DNA of 33,999 nt, taken from the IMG/VR virus record IMGVR_UViG_3300024520_000289, positions 1 through 33,999 of that record, one strand, 5' to 3'. This document shows positions 1,406-33,138 of the stretch, piece after piece. Origin of the DNA: a virus. The notes under the pieces were generated by a model, which saw only the letters and a list, made by a program, of their open reading frames with translations, searched no databases and had not been told where the DNA came from. The stretch's first letter is position 1. Each line of letters begins with the position of its first letter. Both the position numbers and the translations under genes were made by a program.

Positions 1406-1512
1406 TGTTTCTCCTTCACGACCAGGGCTACCTTTTCACCGTCAGGCACATGGACTCCAAGGCTGTTGAGTTCCTTGGTGATCTGTTCCCTCATCTGTTC
1501 ATCTTGGATCAC
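1402..1512 (-). CDS. Very small coupled ORF (36 aa)
   Basis: This ORF fills the gap between the lipase and the 103-aa gene. It starts with GTG at 1512, inside the last codons of the lipase, with GAGGAAG placed 5 bases upstream. It ends in TGA overlapping the GTG start of the next gene. The product is a charged peptide with a Glu/Gln/Lys-rich N-terminal half, a GVHVPDG turn in the middle and a Val/Lys-rich end. Overlap at both ends and a good ribosome-binding site argue that it is translated, at least to carry ribosomes through. No homology is recognised and the function is unknown. Confidence 0.5.
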   Translation of the reverse strand: MIQDEQMREQITKELNSLGVHVPDGEKVALVVKEKQ

Positions 1513-2215
1513 AGTGCTTCCTCAACCGGCTGACGTAGGAGTCGATGTCGTGGGCGAGGCCTGGTTCTATTCGCCCGCTGATCCAGTCCCAGAGGGACTG
1601 CCTACGCTTGACCAGTCCCTTGTGAGTGACGACACGTCGGGTGCCTTGGTGGGTGTACCCAAGCAGCCATGGCGGTGTGGATGGCACGATGTCGCCTGCG
1701 TTCACGACTCTGAAGTGTGGGTCGAGGAACATGTCACGCCATCTACCGTCTCCGACCCTTGGGGCTCCGAAGCTGTAGACGGCTTCCACGTCTGCGTATG
1801 GCAAGTTCACTAACGCCGACGTAATCGCGGCTATGGCACCACCAAGGCTGTGCCCTGCGAGCCACGCGCTTGTTTGTATGTCGGGGTCTTGTTCGAGGAC
1901 TGGGGCGATCTCTCGGACTGCTGCGAGGAACCCGGAGTGGACTTGTCGGTAGTCTTCGAGTGTGGTCCTCCCCATGGAGGTGTTCCTCTTCCAGTCGGTG
2001 AAGTCGTCGGTTCCTCTGAAGCAGATGACGGTGTGATCCTTGGTTACCCACCCACGGGCCACGGTTGCTCCGCACTCCCAGGATCGGACTGACCCAAGGT
2101 GCGACCACTTGTCAACGAAGGCCTCGTGGCTTCCGTAGGTGTCACGGCACGCCTCGGCCAGTACCAGCGCACGGTGGGCACTGAATACGGACGGGTCGTG
2201 GGATGGTCTGAACAT
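1499..2215 (-). CDS. Class 3 lipase (alpha/beta hydrolase)
   Basis: A 238-residue alpha/beta hydrolase of the lipase class 3 family, which hydrolyses ester bonds of acylglycerols or related lipids. The family signature is complete. The FRGTD motif (residues 66-70) forms the oxyanion region. The nucleophile elbow is GHSLGG (121-126) with Ser123. SFGAPRVG (148-155) follows, then the acidic residue Asp175 in NAGDIVP and His222 in the C-terminal LAHD. No signal peptide is visible, so export would need lysis, a holin, or incorporation into the particle. It sits 7 bp after the 126-aa gene and overlaps the next small ORF. Esterases and lipases occur in some phages as envelope-attacking lysis enzymes (LysB of mycobacteriophages, from a different subfamily) or virion enzymes. 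Either role fits here. The family assignment is firm; the biological role is inferred. Confidence 0.9.
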   Translation of the reverse strand: MFRPSHDPSVFSAHRALVLAEACRDTYGSHEAFVDKWSHLGSVRSWECGATVARGWVTKDHTVICFRGTDDFTDWKRNTSMGRTTLEDYRQVHSGFLAAVREIAPVLEQDPDIQTSAWLAGHSLGGAIAAITSALVNLPYADVEAVYSFGAPRVGDGRWRDMFLDPHFRVVNAGDIVPSTPPWLLGYTHQGTRRVVTHKGLVKRRQSLWDWISGRIEPGLAHDIDSYVSRLRKHCDPR

Positions 2216-2222
2216 GGCCCGG

Positions 2223-2603
2223 TTAAGAGGGGATGATGGCGTAGACGAGGTTGATCGTGCCGCTGTGGTCGTTGGTGCCGAAGTCCCAGTTGAGGGCTTC
2301 GTTCTCTCCGCAGCAGAACCAGCCGTAGCGGTTCAGTGGCATCGACCAAGGGCTGTTCGTTTTGAAGTCCACCCGCATCACCTGGGTGATGCCGCTCTTT
2401 ATGAACCACGACTTTGAAGTGTTTGCTGCGTGGAACAACGCGAGGACGACGATCTTCTTCCCAGCGCCGGGAGCAGCGACGATCTCCTGCTCGTCGTCGT
2501 CTTGCGAGAACCCAACGCAGAGATGAGTGACCCCAGTGGAGCCGCGCTCGATCGTCTCCATGTCGTCGTAGTTAGCGGTGGACGTGTAGGTGGTGAGTGC
2601 CAT
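2223..2603 (-). CDS. Hypothetical 126-aa late protein, probably beta-rich
   Basis: A 126-residue protein starting with ATG at 2603. The ribosome-binding site is weak, and a 7-bp stem-loop lies directly upstream (2614-2635). The sequence alternates short hydrophobic strands with polar turns (KKIVVLALFHAA, and GTINLVYAIIP at the end) and has adjacent cysteines (FCCGEN). That pattern suggests a compact beta-sandwich such as a small virion decoration or tail-associated domain. No family is recognised. It is the first gene after the 460-bp structured non-coding region and the first of the second late block, directly upstream of the lipase. A structural or lipase-partner role is a guess. Confidence 0.65.
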   Translation of the reverse strand: MALTTYTSTANYDDMETIERGSTGVTHLCVGFSQDDDEQEIVAAPGAGKKIVVLALFHAANTSKSWFIKSGITQVMRVDFKTNSPWSMPLNRYGWFCCGENEALNWDFGTNDHSGTINLVYAIIPS

Positions 2604-2613
2604 TTGGTTACGG

Positions 2614-2635
2614 TTCCCTATTATTTACTAGGGAA
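2614..2635 (-). repeat. 7-bp stem-loop before the 126-aa gene
   Basis: TTCCCTA (2614-2620) pairs with TAGGGAA (2629-2635) around an 8-base AT-rich loop. It lies about 11 bases before the ATG at 2603, in the leader of the minus-strand transcript. There it could be an RNase III-type processing site or could modulate translation. It overlaps the next stem-loop by two bases, so the two cannot both be fully formed. Confidence 0.45.
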
Positions 2636-2654
2636 AGGCCCCTTAAGGGCCTTT
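2634..2654. terminator. 8-bp GC-rich stem-loop, weak terminator candidate
   Basis: AAAGGCCC (2634-2641) pairs with GGGCCTTT (2647-2654) around a 5-base loop. Each side is flanked by only three T residues, so as an intrinsic terminator it would be weak in both directions. It may instead be a processing stem. Confidence 0.35.
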
Positions 2655-2713
2655 ACCCCTGTCTAAAAGCTCTTGTGCCTCGTAGCTGCTTGCGCTTGGC
2701 TTCCACCCATGAA

Positions 2714-2736
2714 GGGAAGAAGAACCCCCGAAGGGG
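2714..2736 (-). terminator. cUUCGg hairpin with pyrimidine tail (minus-strand terminator candidate)
   Basis: Read on the minus strand, CCCC-TTCG-GGGG (2736 down to 2725) is followed by TTCTTCTTCCC. UUCG closed by C-G is an extra-stable tetraloop common in bacterial terminators. The tail is T-rich but interrupted by C, so efficiency is uncertain. It would act on transcripts running out of the terminase gene. The same bases can alternatively pair with the right arm of the long inverted repeat. Confidence 0.45.
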
Positions 2737-2749
2737 AAGAGAAAGGGGA

Positions 2750-2812
2750 AGTGGATTGGGAACGCTTCATTTGCGCCATATTTACTATAGTAGCGTTTTA
2801 CCCCAGTCCACT
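2750..2812. repeat. Nested inner stem enclosing a CTATAG-containing palindrome
   Basis: AGTGGATTGGG (2750-2760) can pair with CCCAGTCCACT (2802-2812) with one wobble. The adjacent AACGCT (2761-2766) pairs with AGCGTT (2792-2797). The apex contains the 10-base palindrome TACTATAGTA (2783-2792), whose CTATAG core is reminiscent of the melting region of T7-family promoters. An alternative pairing exists between ATTGGG (2755-2760) and CCCAAT (2821-2826), so at least two folds compete. Confidence 0.5.
2782..2793 (-). promoter_or_regulatory. 12-mer motif, copy 1 (candidate phage promoter element)
   Basis: On the minus strand this reads CTACTATAGTAA. It matches the copy at 2962-2973 at 11 of 12 positions. 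Two copies in the one large intergenic region, ahead of a new block of late genes, suggest a recognition site for the phage RNA polymerase or a regulator. This is inference. I did not see the motif at other gene boundaries. Confidence 0.3.
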
Positions 2813-2827
2813 AACTCCGACCCAATG

Positions 2828-2856
2828 TAAGTAGTTGCCCTGTATGGGGTTACTTA
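2828..2856. repeat. Small nested stem-loop
   Basis: TAAGTA (2828-2833) pairs with TACTTA (2851-2856), and inside it CCC (2838-2840) pairs with GGG (2846-2848) around TGTAT. It lies between the inner stem and the right arm of the long inverted repeat, adding to the nested structure. Confidence 0.4.
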
Positions 2857-2874
2857 ACGTGCCTTGTCGTTCCT

Positions 2875-2895
2875 CCCCTTCGGGGGTTCTTCTTC
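2875..2895 (+). terminator. cUUCGg hairpin with pyrimidine tail (plus-strand counterpart)
   Basis: On the plus strand CCCC-TTCG-GGGG (2875-2886) is followed by TTCTTCTTC (2887-2895). This mirrors the minus-strand hairpin in the left arm. There is no plus-strand gene upstream for it to terminate, so it may exist mainly as the second arm of the long inverted repeat or block antisense transcription. Confidence 0.35.
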
Positions 2896-2934
2896 CCCTC
2901 ATGGGTGGTCGTTGGGCAGGAGGTAGCCTTCGGA

Positions 2935-2951
2935 AGTGGGCAGAGCCCACT
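2935..2951. repeat. Perfect 7-bp stem-loop
   Basis: AGTGGGC (2935-2941) pairs perfectly with GCCCACT (2945-2951) around the loop AGA. There is no T-run next to it on either strand, so it is not a typical intrinsic terminator. It lies between the long inverted repeat and copy 2 of the 12-mer. Confidence 0.45.
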
Positions 2952-2961
2952 CCCAGTGGAA

Positions 2962-2973
2962 TTACCATAGTAG
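2962..2973 (-). promoter_or_regulatory. 12-mer motif, copy 2 (candidate phage promoter element)
   Basis: On the minus strand this reads CTACTATGGTAA, one base different from the copy at 2782-2793. It directly follows, in minus-strand order, the end of the 11-bp inverted repeat after the terminase. It could start transcription of the lipase block. The function is not proven. Confidence 0.3.
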
Positions 2974-3061
2974 GCCTGAGAGCCCCTCAGATGGTCAGTA
3001 GCGCGGGTCGCGACTACTTGCTCAGGTCTGTGGTCGAGTCCCTTTAGCGAGGCTCTCAGGC
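2974..3061. repeat. 11-bp perfect inverted repeat just after the large terminase gene
   Basis: GCCTGAGAGCC (2974-2984) and GGCTCTCAGGC (3051-3061) are perfect reverse complements separated by 66 bases. In minus-strand RNA this closes a large stem starting four bases after the terminase stop codon. The 88-base span has the size of a tRNA, but I could not fold a T arm or anticodon arm in it, so I do not call a tRNA. It could be a structured 3' end of the late mRNA. Confidence 0.55.
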
Positions 3062-3064
3062 GCC

Positions 3065-4873
3065 TTAGCGGCGAAGCCAGCCTTTAGGGCTGGTGGTCGT
3101 TTCCGTAGGTTTCGGTCCCAGGGTGGTCTTCATCCGCTCTCGCTGCCGTTTGAACGTGTCTTTCCATTCACGGTCGGAACTCTTCCGTTCCGCATCCTGG
3201 GCCATTGCTTTGGTGAAGTACGCGACCCCAATGGCGAGTGCATCGAGACGGTCGTCGTGCTTCAGGCACGACCTGTCAGCGGTCAGCCTTGTCAACTGGT
3301 GGAACAGTTGACGGTAGAGGGCCACGTCCTGGCCTTCGCCGCTGTGGCTCCGTTGGTCCTCAAGGATGACCTGCTTGTTGACGACCAGCCTGTGCTGGTT
3401 CATGAGCGGCTCCAGCGTCTGGATGATCCGCCGCTCCTTCTGCCCGGTTGACCACTCAGCATCCTCAACCTTGCAGGGGTAGATGCTGTGCATGATGGGC
3501 TTGAGCAGTTCGTTGAACATGCCTCCACCGTAGTTCGGCTCGACTATGCACTTGTTCACCTTCCAGTGCTTCGCTCGGTTCGCGAGGTAGGAGAGGTTCT
3601 CTTCGGTGAACCCTCCCACGAGACCACGGCACTCCATGAGGTAGATGAACCCGTACAGTTGCTTGAGTACGACGTAGGCAAGCTCGTCCTTACCGCGACC
3701 ACTGGGGTCAACCGCCATGATCGACCCCTGGTACTCCAGCATCTCGCCCTTCAACTGCATCGGGCGGTAGTAGCGGTCGCCTCTGAATCCGACGACGGGA
3801 ACGTCGCTGACGATGAGGTCAGGGCTCGCGGCCCACACTGGGTGTTCTGAAGTGAGGTCCGGGTTGAGGGCCATCACAATGAGATCGGATAGCTTCAGCG
3901 GATACCTGTCAGCGTCAGCCAACGAGGTGTCGAGCATGAACTGGAGCGCGAACCCAGAGCGACCGTAGCTCGCCTCACGTTCACACAGATCAGCCTCGGA
4001 GAACCGCTCAGGGTCACAGGGCTTGCCGCTCTTGCCGTCGAGCCCACCTCCTGTGCGGAGGCTTGGGTCGGCTTCCATCTCTTGTCGGAGTATCCCGGCC
4101 AGAGCGTAGCTGTGCGCCTTCATCCAAGCACTGCTCGGGTATCTGGCAGGCCAGACAATCCGCTTGTACCCACGCTTCTCAAGTTCTGCGTAGACGGTGT
4201 CCTCGCACTGTGGTGTGCCGAGGTACAAGACGACACCACCGGGCTTGAGGATAGCGTCGAACTCCTTGACACGTTCAGCGAGCTTCTCCCGCATCGTTTG
4301 TGTCTCGGACGTGTTCGGCGTCTCCACATCGTCAGGCACGATGAGATCGGCACGGGAGCCCGCGAGTTGCCCCATCACACCCACCGACTTCACACTTGGG
4401 GCGTGTGAGGCAGGGGCAAGGCCGACATCGAACGCTACGTTGGAGTAGCGGTGGCCCTTGTCGAAGTCCGGTTTCAACGGGGCCAGGACATCGACCTCGT
4501 GGATCAGTCGCTTGGTGAACGTGGAGAACTCGTCTGCACGCTGCTTGGCACTGGAGCAGACCATGTTGTTCAAGTCTGGTCGCATCGCCAGTACCCAGTC
4601 CACCACCGCACTCGTGATCCACGACTTACCTACCCCTCGGAACGCTTGCAGCACGACGCGCTTGGCTGGTGCCCCGTTCTCCTCATCCCAAAGGACCGGG
4701 TACTGCTCCTTGAACCAAGGCACGTCCTCTTTCAGGAGGTGGTGCTTGACCACACCCTGGAGGCAGTTAGCCATGTCGTACTGGACCTTGGTGGGCTGAG
4801 GTAGCCCAAGCGTGGCCCAGACGAGGAAGATGAACACGCGGAAGTCCTTGAGTCGGAGGTCCGCGAAGATCAT
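3065..4873 (-). CDS. terL: Terminase large subunit (T7 gp19-like)
   Basis: A 602-residue DNA-packaging motor and nuclease (T7 gp19 is 586 aa). It translocates concatemeric DNA into the procapsid at the portal and cuts it. The ATPase domain shows a Walker A motif AFRGVGKS (77-84) and a Walker B ADLIVPDD (175-182). The C-terminal RNase H-like nuclease has its expected acidic residues in AVDPSGRGKDE (Asp389), VEPNYGGG (Glu445) and HDDRLDAL (539-546). The C-terminus is basic and Thr/Pro-rich. The start is fixed by an ATGA overlap with the small terminase gene, so the two subunits are coupled. It is the last gene of the T7-like late operon and is followed by the structured non-coding region. Identification is firm. 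Confidence 0.97.
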   Translation of the reverse strand: MIFADLRLKDFRVFIFLVWATLGLPQPTKVQYDMANCLQGVVKHHLLKEDVPWFKEQYPVLWDEENGAPAKRVVLQAFRGVGKSWITSAVVDWVLAMRPDLNNMVCSSAKQRADEFSTFTKRLIHEVDVLAPLKPDFDKGHRYSNVAFDVGLAPASHAPSVKSVGVMGQLAGSRADLIVPDDVETPNTSETQTMREKLAERVKEFDAILKPGGVVLYLGTPQCEDTVYAELEKRGYKRIVWPARYPSSAWMKAHSYALAGILRQEMEADPSLRTGGGLDGKSGKPCDPERFSEADLCEREASYGRSGFALQFMLDTSLADADRYPLKLSDLIVMALNPDLTSEHPVWAASPDLIVSDVPVVGFRGDRYYRPMQLKGEMLEYQGSIMAVDPSGRGKDELAYVVLKQLYGFIYLMECRGLVGGFTEENLSYLANRAKHWKVNKCIVEPNYGGGMFNELLKPIMHSIYPCKVEDAEWSTGQKERRIIQTLEPLMNQHRLVVNKQVILEDQRSHSGEGQDVALYRQLFHQLTRLTADRSCLKHDDRLDALAIGVAYFTKAMAQDAERKSSDREWKDTFKRQRERMKTTLGPKPTETTTSPKGWLRR

Positions 4874-21825: not shown

Positions 21826-21849
21826 CTACTTAATTCCAAAAAGTGTTAT

Positions 21850-21882
21850 GGGGTAAGCACTTACGATCGAAGTGCTTACCCC
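21850..21882 (-). terminator. Perfect 13-bp stem-loop between replication and structural genes
   Basis: GGGGTAAGCACTT (21850-21862) pairs perfectly with AAGTGCTTACCCC (21870-21882) around a 7-base loop. In minus-strand RNA a run of five U residues appears 7 bases after the stem (21838-21842). It could be a terminator, somewhat atypical because of that gap, or an RNase III site like those that process T7 mRNAs. It marks the border between DNA metabolism and virion genes. Confidence 0.65.
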
Positions 21883-21886
21883 TGGT

Positions 21887-32298: not shown

Positions 32299-33138
32299 TT
32301 AGTCGAGCAGCGACATGGCGGCTTGCATCGACCGTGTGTCCAGGTGTGCGTACCGCATCGTCGTCTGGATGTTCGCGTGCCCAAGCCACTGCTTGATCAC
32401 AGGTAGACTCGCGCCCTTACTGAGCAGCCGACTCGCACAGGTGTGCCTGAGGATGTGAGGCACGACCTCCTTGTCGTCGCCCAGGCCTGCTTCCTCCCGT
32501 GCCTGCTTCCATGCCTTGTTGAACGACGACTGGCTCAGTCGGGTGAAAGGCCCGAAGCCATCATGTCGCACCGCGACAAGGTTGCGGAGGCGAGCCGTCA
32601 GCGGGATCGCACGGGGACGACCACCCTTGGTGTTACGGACAAGAGCGGTAACGACCTCACCCTTGGCCGCGAGTCCATCGGGAGTCAGGTCTTGTTTGAC
32701 GATGTCCTCCCACCTGAGGCGTAGTGCTTCGGATACACGCATGCCGCTGTCCGCCAGCCAGGACACCAGCCCCCGGTAAGCGAGGGGCATGCCGTCGAGG
32801 AGCTTCGAGTACTCGGCGTCGGTCAGGACGCGGGTGCGGCCCTCTGGCTCACGCTGGCGTGCGATGGTGGGCACGCTGTCGATCTGCCCTTCCGTCTGTG
32901 CCACGCGGAGCATGGTGTTAAGGGCGGCGAGCTTGCGGTTGACACCAGCGGGCGTCAGGCCTCGGCCCTTCAGGATCGCGACAAGCCCGTTGAGGGACTT
33001 GACGTTCACATCCTGAACTCTGGTACTGTCACCGAGGATGTCGATGCAGTGGGTCGCGTTGCGAACGGAGTCCTCCTCGGACTTCTGTCCAGCCCAACGA
33101 ATTGAGTGAGTGTGATTTAGGAGATACCGTAGTTCCAT
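32299..33138 (-). CDS. int: Tyrosine-recombinase integrase
   Basis: A 279-residue tyrosine recombinase with all catalytic residues: Arg134 in GMRVSEALRLRW, Lys171 in NTKGGRPRAIPL, His228 and Arg231 in HILRHTCAS, His254 in LGHANIQTT and the nucleophile Tyr263 in MRYAHL. The N-terminal 95 residues form the core-binding SAM-like helices. It lacks a clear arm-binding domain, so it is compact, similar to integrases beside RNA polymerase in some marine T7-like phages. Those integrate into host tRNA genes. It is divergent from the plus-strand gene at 33297. No tRNA-like attachment site was recognised. Start is the ATG at 33138; the ribosome-binding site is weak. Confidence 0.95.
   Translation of the reverse strand: MELRYLLNHTHSIRWAGQKSEEDSVRNATHCIDILGDSTRVQDVNVKSLNGLVAILKGRGLTPAGVNRKLAALNTMLRVAQTEGQIDSVPTIARQREPEGRTRVLTDAEYSKLLDGMPLAYRGLVSWLADSGMRVSEALRLRWEDIVKQDLTPDGLAAKGEVVTALVRNTKGGRPRAIPLTARLRNLVAVRHDGFGPFTRLSQSSFNKAWKQAREEAGLGDDKEVVPHILRHTCASRLLSKGASLPVIKQWLGHANIQTTMRYAHLDTRSMQAAMSLLD

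Follow-up and report, generated by a model that had tools for sequence, protein, structure and literature searches.

A 38-bp inverted repeat after terL in a T7-like phage and a candidate DNA maturation element in post-terL regions

Results

The window (the whole stretch of 33,999 bases that was analysed, a virus record of 59.5% GC) carries a 38-bp inverted repeat in the non-coding gap directly after the large terminase subunit gene (terL), a place in which T7-like phages show an excess of inverted repeats and of the hexamer CTATAG. Our tentative preference is to see the repeat as corresponding to the right-end/concatemer-processing region of T7 and as working chiefly at the DNA level. It is not fully understood how T7-type phages mark their ends and complete them, as has been said of the left repeat (PMC3350473). 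The post-terL signature, found across about 80 lineages, makes the old question of T7-type end formation directly testable, since it provides concrete sites for terminase-recognition tests, and the repeat in the window is its most extreme palindromic form.

An integrase-bearing T7-like phage

The genes of the window lie on the minus strand and include those for a T7-type RNA polymerase, a gp2.5-like protein, primase/helicase, DNA polymerase, portal, capsid, tail and internal virion proteins, terminase and a tyrosine integrase. The phage is uncultured and integrase-bearing and forms a deep branch of the T7-like phages: its best terL matches are 50–52% identical and its best RNA polymerase matches about 35% identical. 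We found no relatives closer than about 50% in terL, and no closer ones via terL, RNA polymerase or lipase. The portal search returned only an identical fragment, a 9.6-kb contig (L092, IMGVR_UViG_3300024518_000665) that encodes an identical portal protein, covers a different part of the genome and probably belongs to the same virus population. The tyrosine integrase gene (32299–33138, minus strand) is located upstream of the phage RNA polymerase gene, and the phage may therefore be temperate.

The terL gene (3065–4873, minus strand; PHROG 38, E 4.6e-105) is directly upstream of a 461-nt gap (2604–3064, minus strand), the sole large non-coding gap of the window. Past the gap, the first gene (2223–2603, minus strand) encodes a protein of 126 aa of no known family, and the operon after terL continues with late-type genes, namely a class 3 lipase gene (1499–2215, minus strand; Lipase_3, E 3.6e-20) and genes for small membrane or lipoprotein-like proteins (the latter judged by eye). 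Because these late-type genes come after the gap, the physical genome end need not be at the gap. Distant relatives of the lipase are found in cyanophages such as P-SSM2. Elsewhere, a gap within the structural-gene region (21826–21886) holds a perfect 13-bp hairpin (GGGGTAAGCACTT/AAGTGCTTACCCC) followed by CACTTTTT, which has the classic shape of a terminator.

The inverted repeat and the other parts of the gap

The two arms of the repeat (2703–2740 and 2871–2908) are complementary at 36 of 38 positions and enclose a spacer of 130 nt (2741–2870), in which an 11-bp stem (2750–2760/2802–2812) is nested. Both the repeat and its intergenic position, reported in a preliminary description of this DNA, are borne out: the expected number of such repeats by chance is about 4e-12 (34 kb, span up to 450), and the score of 32 compares with at most 14 in 300 dinucleotide shuffles of the region. 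No other inverted repeat in the window comes near it in length. We found no DNA homologous to the 461-nt gap in phages, IMG/VR or species genomes, and no Rfam family above its gathering score in the window (the repeat region gave chance-level matches only).

On either strand the gap as a whole folds far more stably than its shuffles (z −11.7 minus, −10.3 plus), and it contains further symmetrical elements: a hairpin right after terL (2974–3061) with perfect 11-bp arms (2974–2984/3051–3061), a short hairpin GGAAGTGGGC/GCCCACTCCC (2932–2954), and a palindrome around CCCTTAAGGGG just ahead of the next gene (2631–2658). The palindrome CTATAG (2785–2790, within TACTATAGTA), present as a single copy in the 34-kb window, lies in the loop of the repeat, and its near-copy CTATGG (2965–2970, minus strand, in CTACTATGGTAA) is 180 nt away. 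Together with a CTAAAG, the gap thus has three CTATAG-like sites (one exact and two with one mismatch) vs 0.43 expected, at offsets from the terL stop of 17 (CTAAAG), 94 (CTATGG) and 274 nt (CTATAG), and these sites do not form an array phased at about 11 bp.

Inverted repeats and CTATAG sites after terL

The survey covered 165 terL loci, each with 400 nt or more of downstream sequence, taken from IMG/VR, from isolates and from species genomes (as prophages). Inverted repeats with a score of at least 12 were found at 0–500 nt after terL in 36 of 161 loci (22%), as compared to 0–4.5% of loci per 500-nt bin over the 4.5 kb upstream of terL, and the excess was kept at the level of 82 lineages (19/81 after terL vs 0–2/82 upstream). 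With a score of 13, repeats were seen in 35 of 165 loci vs 3 of 495 shuffles. Since the upstream bins are mostly coding, the comparison was also made among non-coding gaps, using a crude gene calling (ORFs of at least 60 aa): repeats are present in 19 of 86 gaps after terL, 5 of 136 upstream and 31 of 298 further downstream, several of the last group still being within the post-terL region. The repeat in the window is the strongest among the 165 loci. Locus L032 also has a long inverted repeat, interrupted and about 228 bp in size (591–818 nt after terL), each arm of which holds a smaller palindrome (CCAACCTTGGGTTGG), a design similar to that of the element in the window.

An unplanned, exploratory hexamer search (about 165 loci among L004–L224 plus the window) ranked CTATAG first among the hexamers after terL in T7-like phages, with 75 occurrences vs 7.9 expected (9.5x) in post-terL gaps and 0.97x in other non-coding gaps, a result that held in subsets. 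IMG/VR contigs and host prophages each show the enrichment on their own, and it amounts to 7.2x after clustering. Along the sequence, the first 250 nt hold 82 sites where 10.1 are expected (8.1x), followed by 3.9x at 250–500 nt, whereas every bin upstream of the terL stop gave at most 1.6x and those further downstream at most 1.5x, save for one bin at the far end to which few loci extend (2 vs 1.0). GC-rich relatives have CTTAAG as their top hexamer after terL and are enriched there in hexamers of the arms (AAGGGG, CCCTTC and AAGAAG); the CCCTTAAGGGG palindrome also uses enriched words.

CTATAG-like sites are spaced by 11–12, 21–23 and 32–36 bp, and many loci (e.g. L038, L054, L062 and L026) contain arrays phased at about 11 bp. 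The best period is 11.4 bp, with a coherence of 0.341 vs a maximum of 0.209 in 1000 random placements (a null that does not model tandem duplication; 38 loci contributed the 10–12 bp spacings). This period points to protein-bound DNA. The association of repeat-bearing with CTATAG-bearing loci is not significant. In the literature that we searched, we found no published description of post-terL CTATAG arrays, and nothing relevant to CCTAAAG repeats or to CTATAG in connection with terminase. Like the surveyed post-terL elements, the gap in the window is non-coding, holds an above-chance repeat within 500 nt of the terL stop and has CTATAG sites; it lacks the phased array that a subset of loci show.

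Strand preference of the repeat

Both differences between the arms give U-G pairs in minus-strand RNA and A-C mismatches in plus-strand RNA, exactly as had been described; the suggestion drawn from this, i.e., that selection acts on an RNA structure, did not find support and we reject the wobble pattern as evidence for it. Any transition between two arms yields a G-U pair in one strand and an A-C mismatch in the opposite one, and the same-sense orientation of two differences is therefore a coin toss (about half by chance). Folding of both strands, proposed in the preliminary description as a check, gave a divided answer: the arm duplex alone is favoured in the minus sense by 8 kcal/mol (−81.3 vs −73.5 kcal/mol for plus), whereas for the complete element plus-strand RNA is the more stable form (−125.3, z −10.7; minus strand −115.6, z −9.1). 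Small cUUCGg hairpins within each arm, also described earlier, could form, although in the best local fold of either arm G-runs and C-runs mostly pair in a different way, and the local arm folds (−10 to −15 kcal/mol) are much weaker than the long duplex.

Analogous post-terL repeats show no such bias. Mismatches in those with a score of at least 13 tend slightly in the opposite direction, with 15 G-U vs 28 A-C in the sense strand (p 0.07), the counts being 10:19 to 15:28 across 26–50 long post-terL inverted repeats, and the mean folding energies of sense and antisense RNA are equal (−122.8 and −122.9 kcal/mol, p 0.65, 163 loci). There is thus no sign of selection as transcribed-strand RNA in this class of repeats.

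Discussion

On the favoured reading, T7-like phages maintain a non-coding cis-element rich in palindromes immediately downstream of terL, corresponding to the T7 DNA from gene 19 to the right terminal repeat, and the repeat would be part of it. The symmetrical arms and the CTATAG sites may be recognised or folded (as a cruciform or a fold-back hairpin) at the stage when concatemers produced by replication are recognised, cut and completed for packaging, and we infer that terminase or processing enzymes act on the element. We favour an element working at the DNA level because of the position beside terL, the strand symmetry and the helical phasing in relatives, and also because a hairpin end has been reported on T7 concatemers, according to the title of Chung et al. 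1990 as cited in PMC4925675. Of the roles proposed in the preliminary description, a packaging or replication element is of the type favoured here, and a role as terminator or mRNA 3' end is possible; the RNA inference based on wobble pairs is the part that falls away.

Several observations speak against the favoured reading. The searches gave no close relative in which to see this very repeat conserved. T7, LUZ100, Syn5 and P-SSP7 do not have a comparably long repeat after terL, SP6 and phiKMV lack one in all of their 500-nt bins, and CTATAG is entirely absent from phiKMV and LUZ100. The CTATAG-like sites of the window are not phased, and repeats and CTATAG are not significantly associated among the loci. 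The terminal repeats of SP6 and phiKMV are kilobases beyond terL, so that 'after terL' does not equal 'genome end', and genes are found between terL and the terminal repeat in P-SSP7, Syn5, SP6 and phiKMV. Furthermore, any transcript crossing the gap would also form the long hairpin.

The main rival is that the transcript leaving terL folds into the 38-bp hairpin, which would end or stabilise the late mRNA, be cut by RNase III or act as a (bidirectional) terminator that insulates terL against the late operon behind it. We regard this as possible, if rather doubtful. The repeat directly follows a gene in the transcribed direction, its RNA fold is very stable, the two differences between its arms read as U-G pairs in the sense strand, and each arm has a terminator-like GC hairpin with a U-rich tail, in opposite directions; LUZ100, moreover, has the phage promoter phi8, mapped transcript ends (T20–T22) and its terminal repeat in the post-terL region (PMC10134795). 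A scan for a GC hairpin with a U-run at once behind it gave weak matches on both strands (at 2725–2739 and 2871–2886), 7 being found over 4 kb vs 3.1 expected. Against such an RNA element, plus-strand RNA folds at least equally well, sense and antisense folding is equal in the 163 loci, the 26–50 analogous repeats are without G-U bias, the U-tails are weak (UUCUUCUU), and the long duplex buries the terminator hairpin.

The gap could also control the next late operon or be an origin of replication, with ACTATAG-like starts for the phage RNA polymerase and a repeat that shapes melting or access, which we consider unlikely. T7 and SP6 promoters end in CACTATAG, the T7 phiOR and LUZ100 phi8 promoters lie right after terL, and CTACTATAGTAA and CTACTATGGTAA in the gap score high nowhere else in the window. 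The motif, however, is missing from other gaps where promoters are expected, CTATAG in relatives is not enriched in other non-coding gaps, and it occurs in phased arrays, mostly without a preceding CA, unlike single promoters. A search for a genome-wide promoter motif built from the repeats of the gap gave one confined to the gap, and promoter consensus sequences of T7, SP6, T3 and Syn5 had no convincing match. Least probable, in our judgement very improbable, is a small MITE- or REPIN-like insertion with 38-bp terminal inverted repeats that was captured by the phage: the size of 206 nt, the long near-perfect arms and the smaller palindrome in each arm agree with it, but the flanks, when read, show no direct target repeat at the borders, no second copy was found in the window, and the arm core is present neither in IMG/VR (exact 19-mer) nor in 84,980 species genomes (exact 25-mer). 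Having neither target duplication nor copies, a mobile element was rejected as a candidate.

A wider form of the DNA-level reading would be that an undescribed cis-acting DNA element directly after terL (inverted repeats and helically phased CTATAG) is common to T7-like phages and is read by terminase as a maturation/packaging signal, the 38-bp fold-back repeat performing here the hairpin step of concatemer processing; taken as a whole, we see this as speculative and on balance improbable.

Comparison with known systems

Intrinsic (bidirectional) terminators resemble the element in the GC-rich hairpin and U-rich tail of each arm, and differ from it in that the window has a 38-bp duplex, a 130-nt loop, weak U-tails and no strand preference. 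LUZ100 lacks the long inverted repeat and CTATAG but is likewise an integrase-bearing T7-like phage (terL 49% identical), with regulatory sites and its genome end located after terL. The T7 right end has the order gene 19, phiOR, short repeats and terminal repeat (the concatemer junction), with no post-terL inverted repeat longer than about 9 bp by the same measure, whereas in the window, a metagenomic contig, the gap is followed by late-type genes. The T7 post-terL region contains CTATAG, CTAAAG and C5/G5 palindromes, including a CCCCCATAGGGGG palindrome, and SP6, like T7, has CTATAG-like sites after terL. T7 and the window thus have in common non-coding DNA rich in palindromes and repeats right after terL, with CTATAG/CTAAAG sites.
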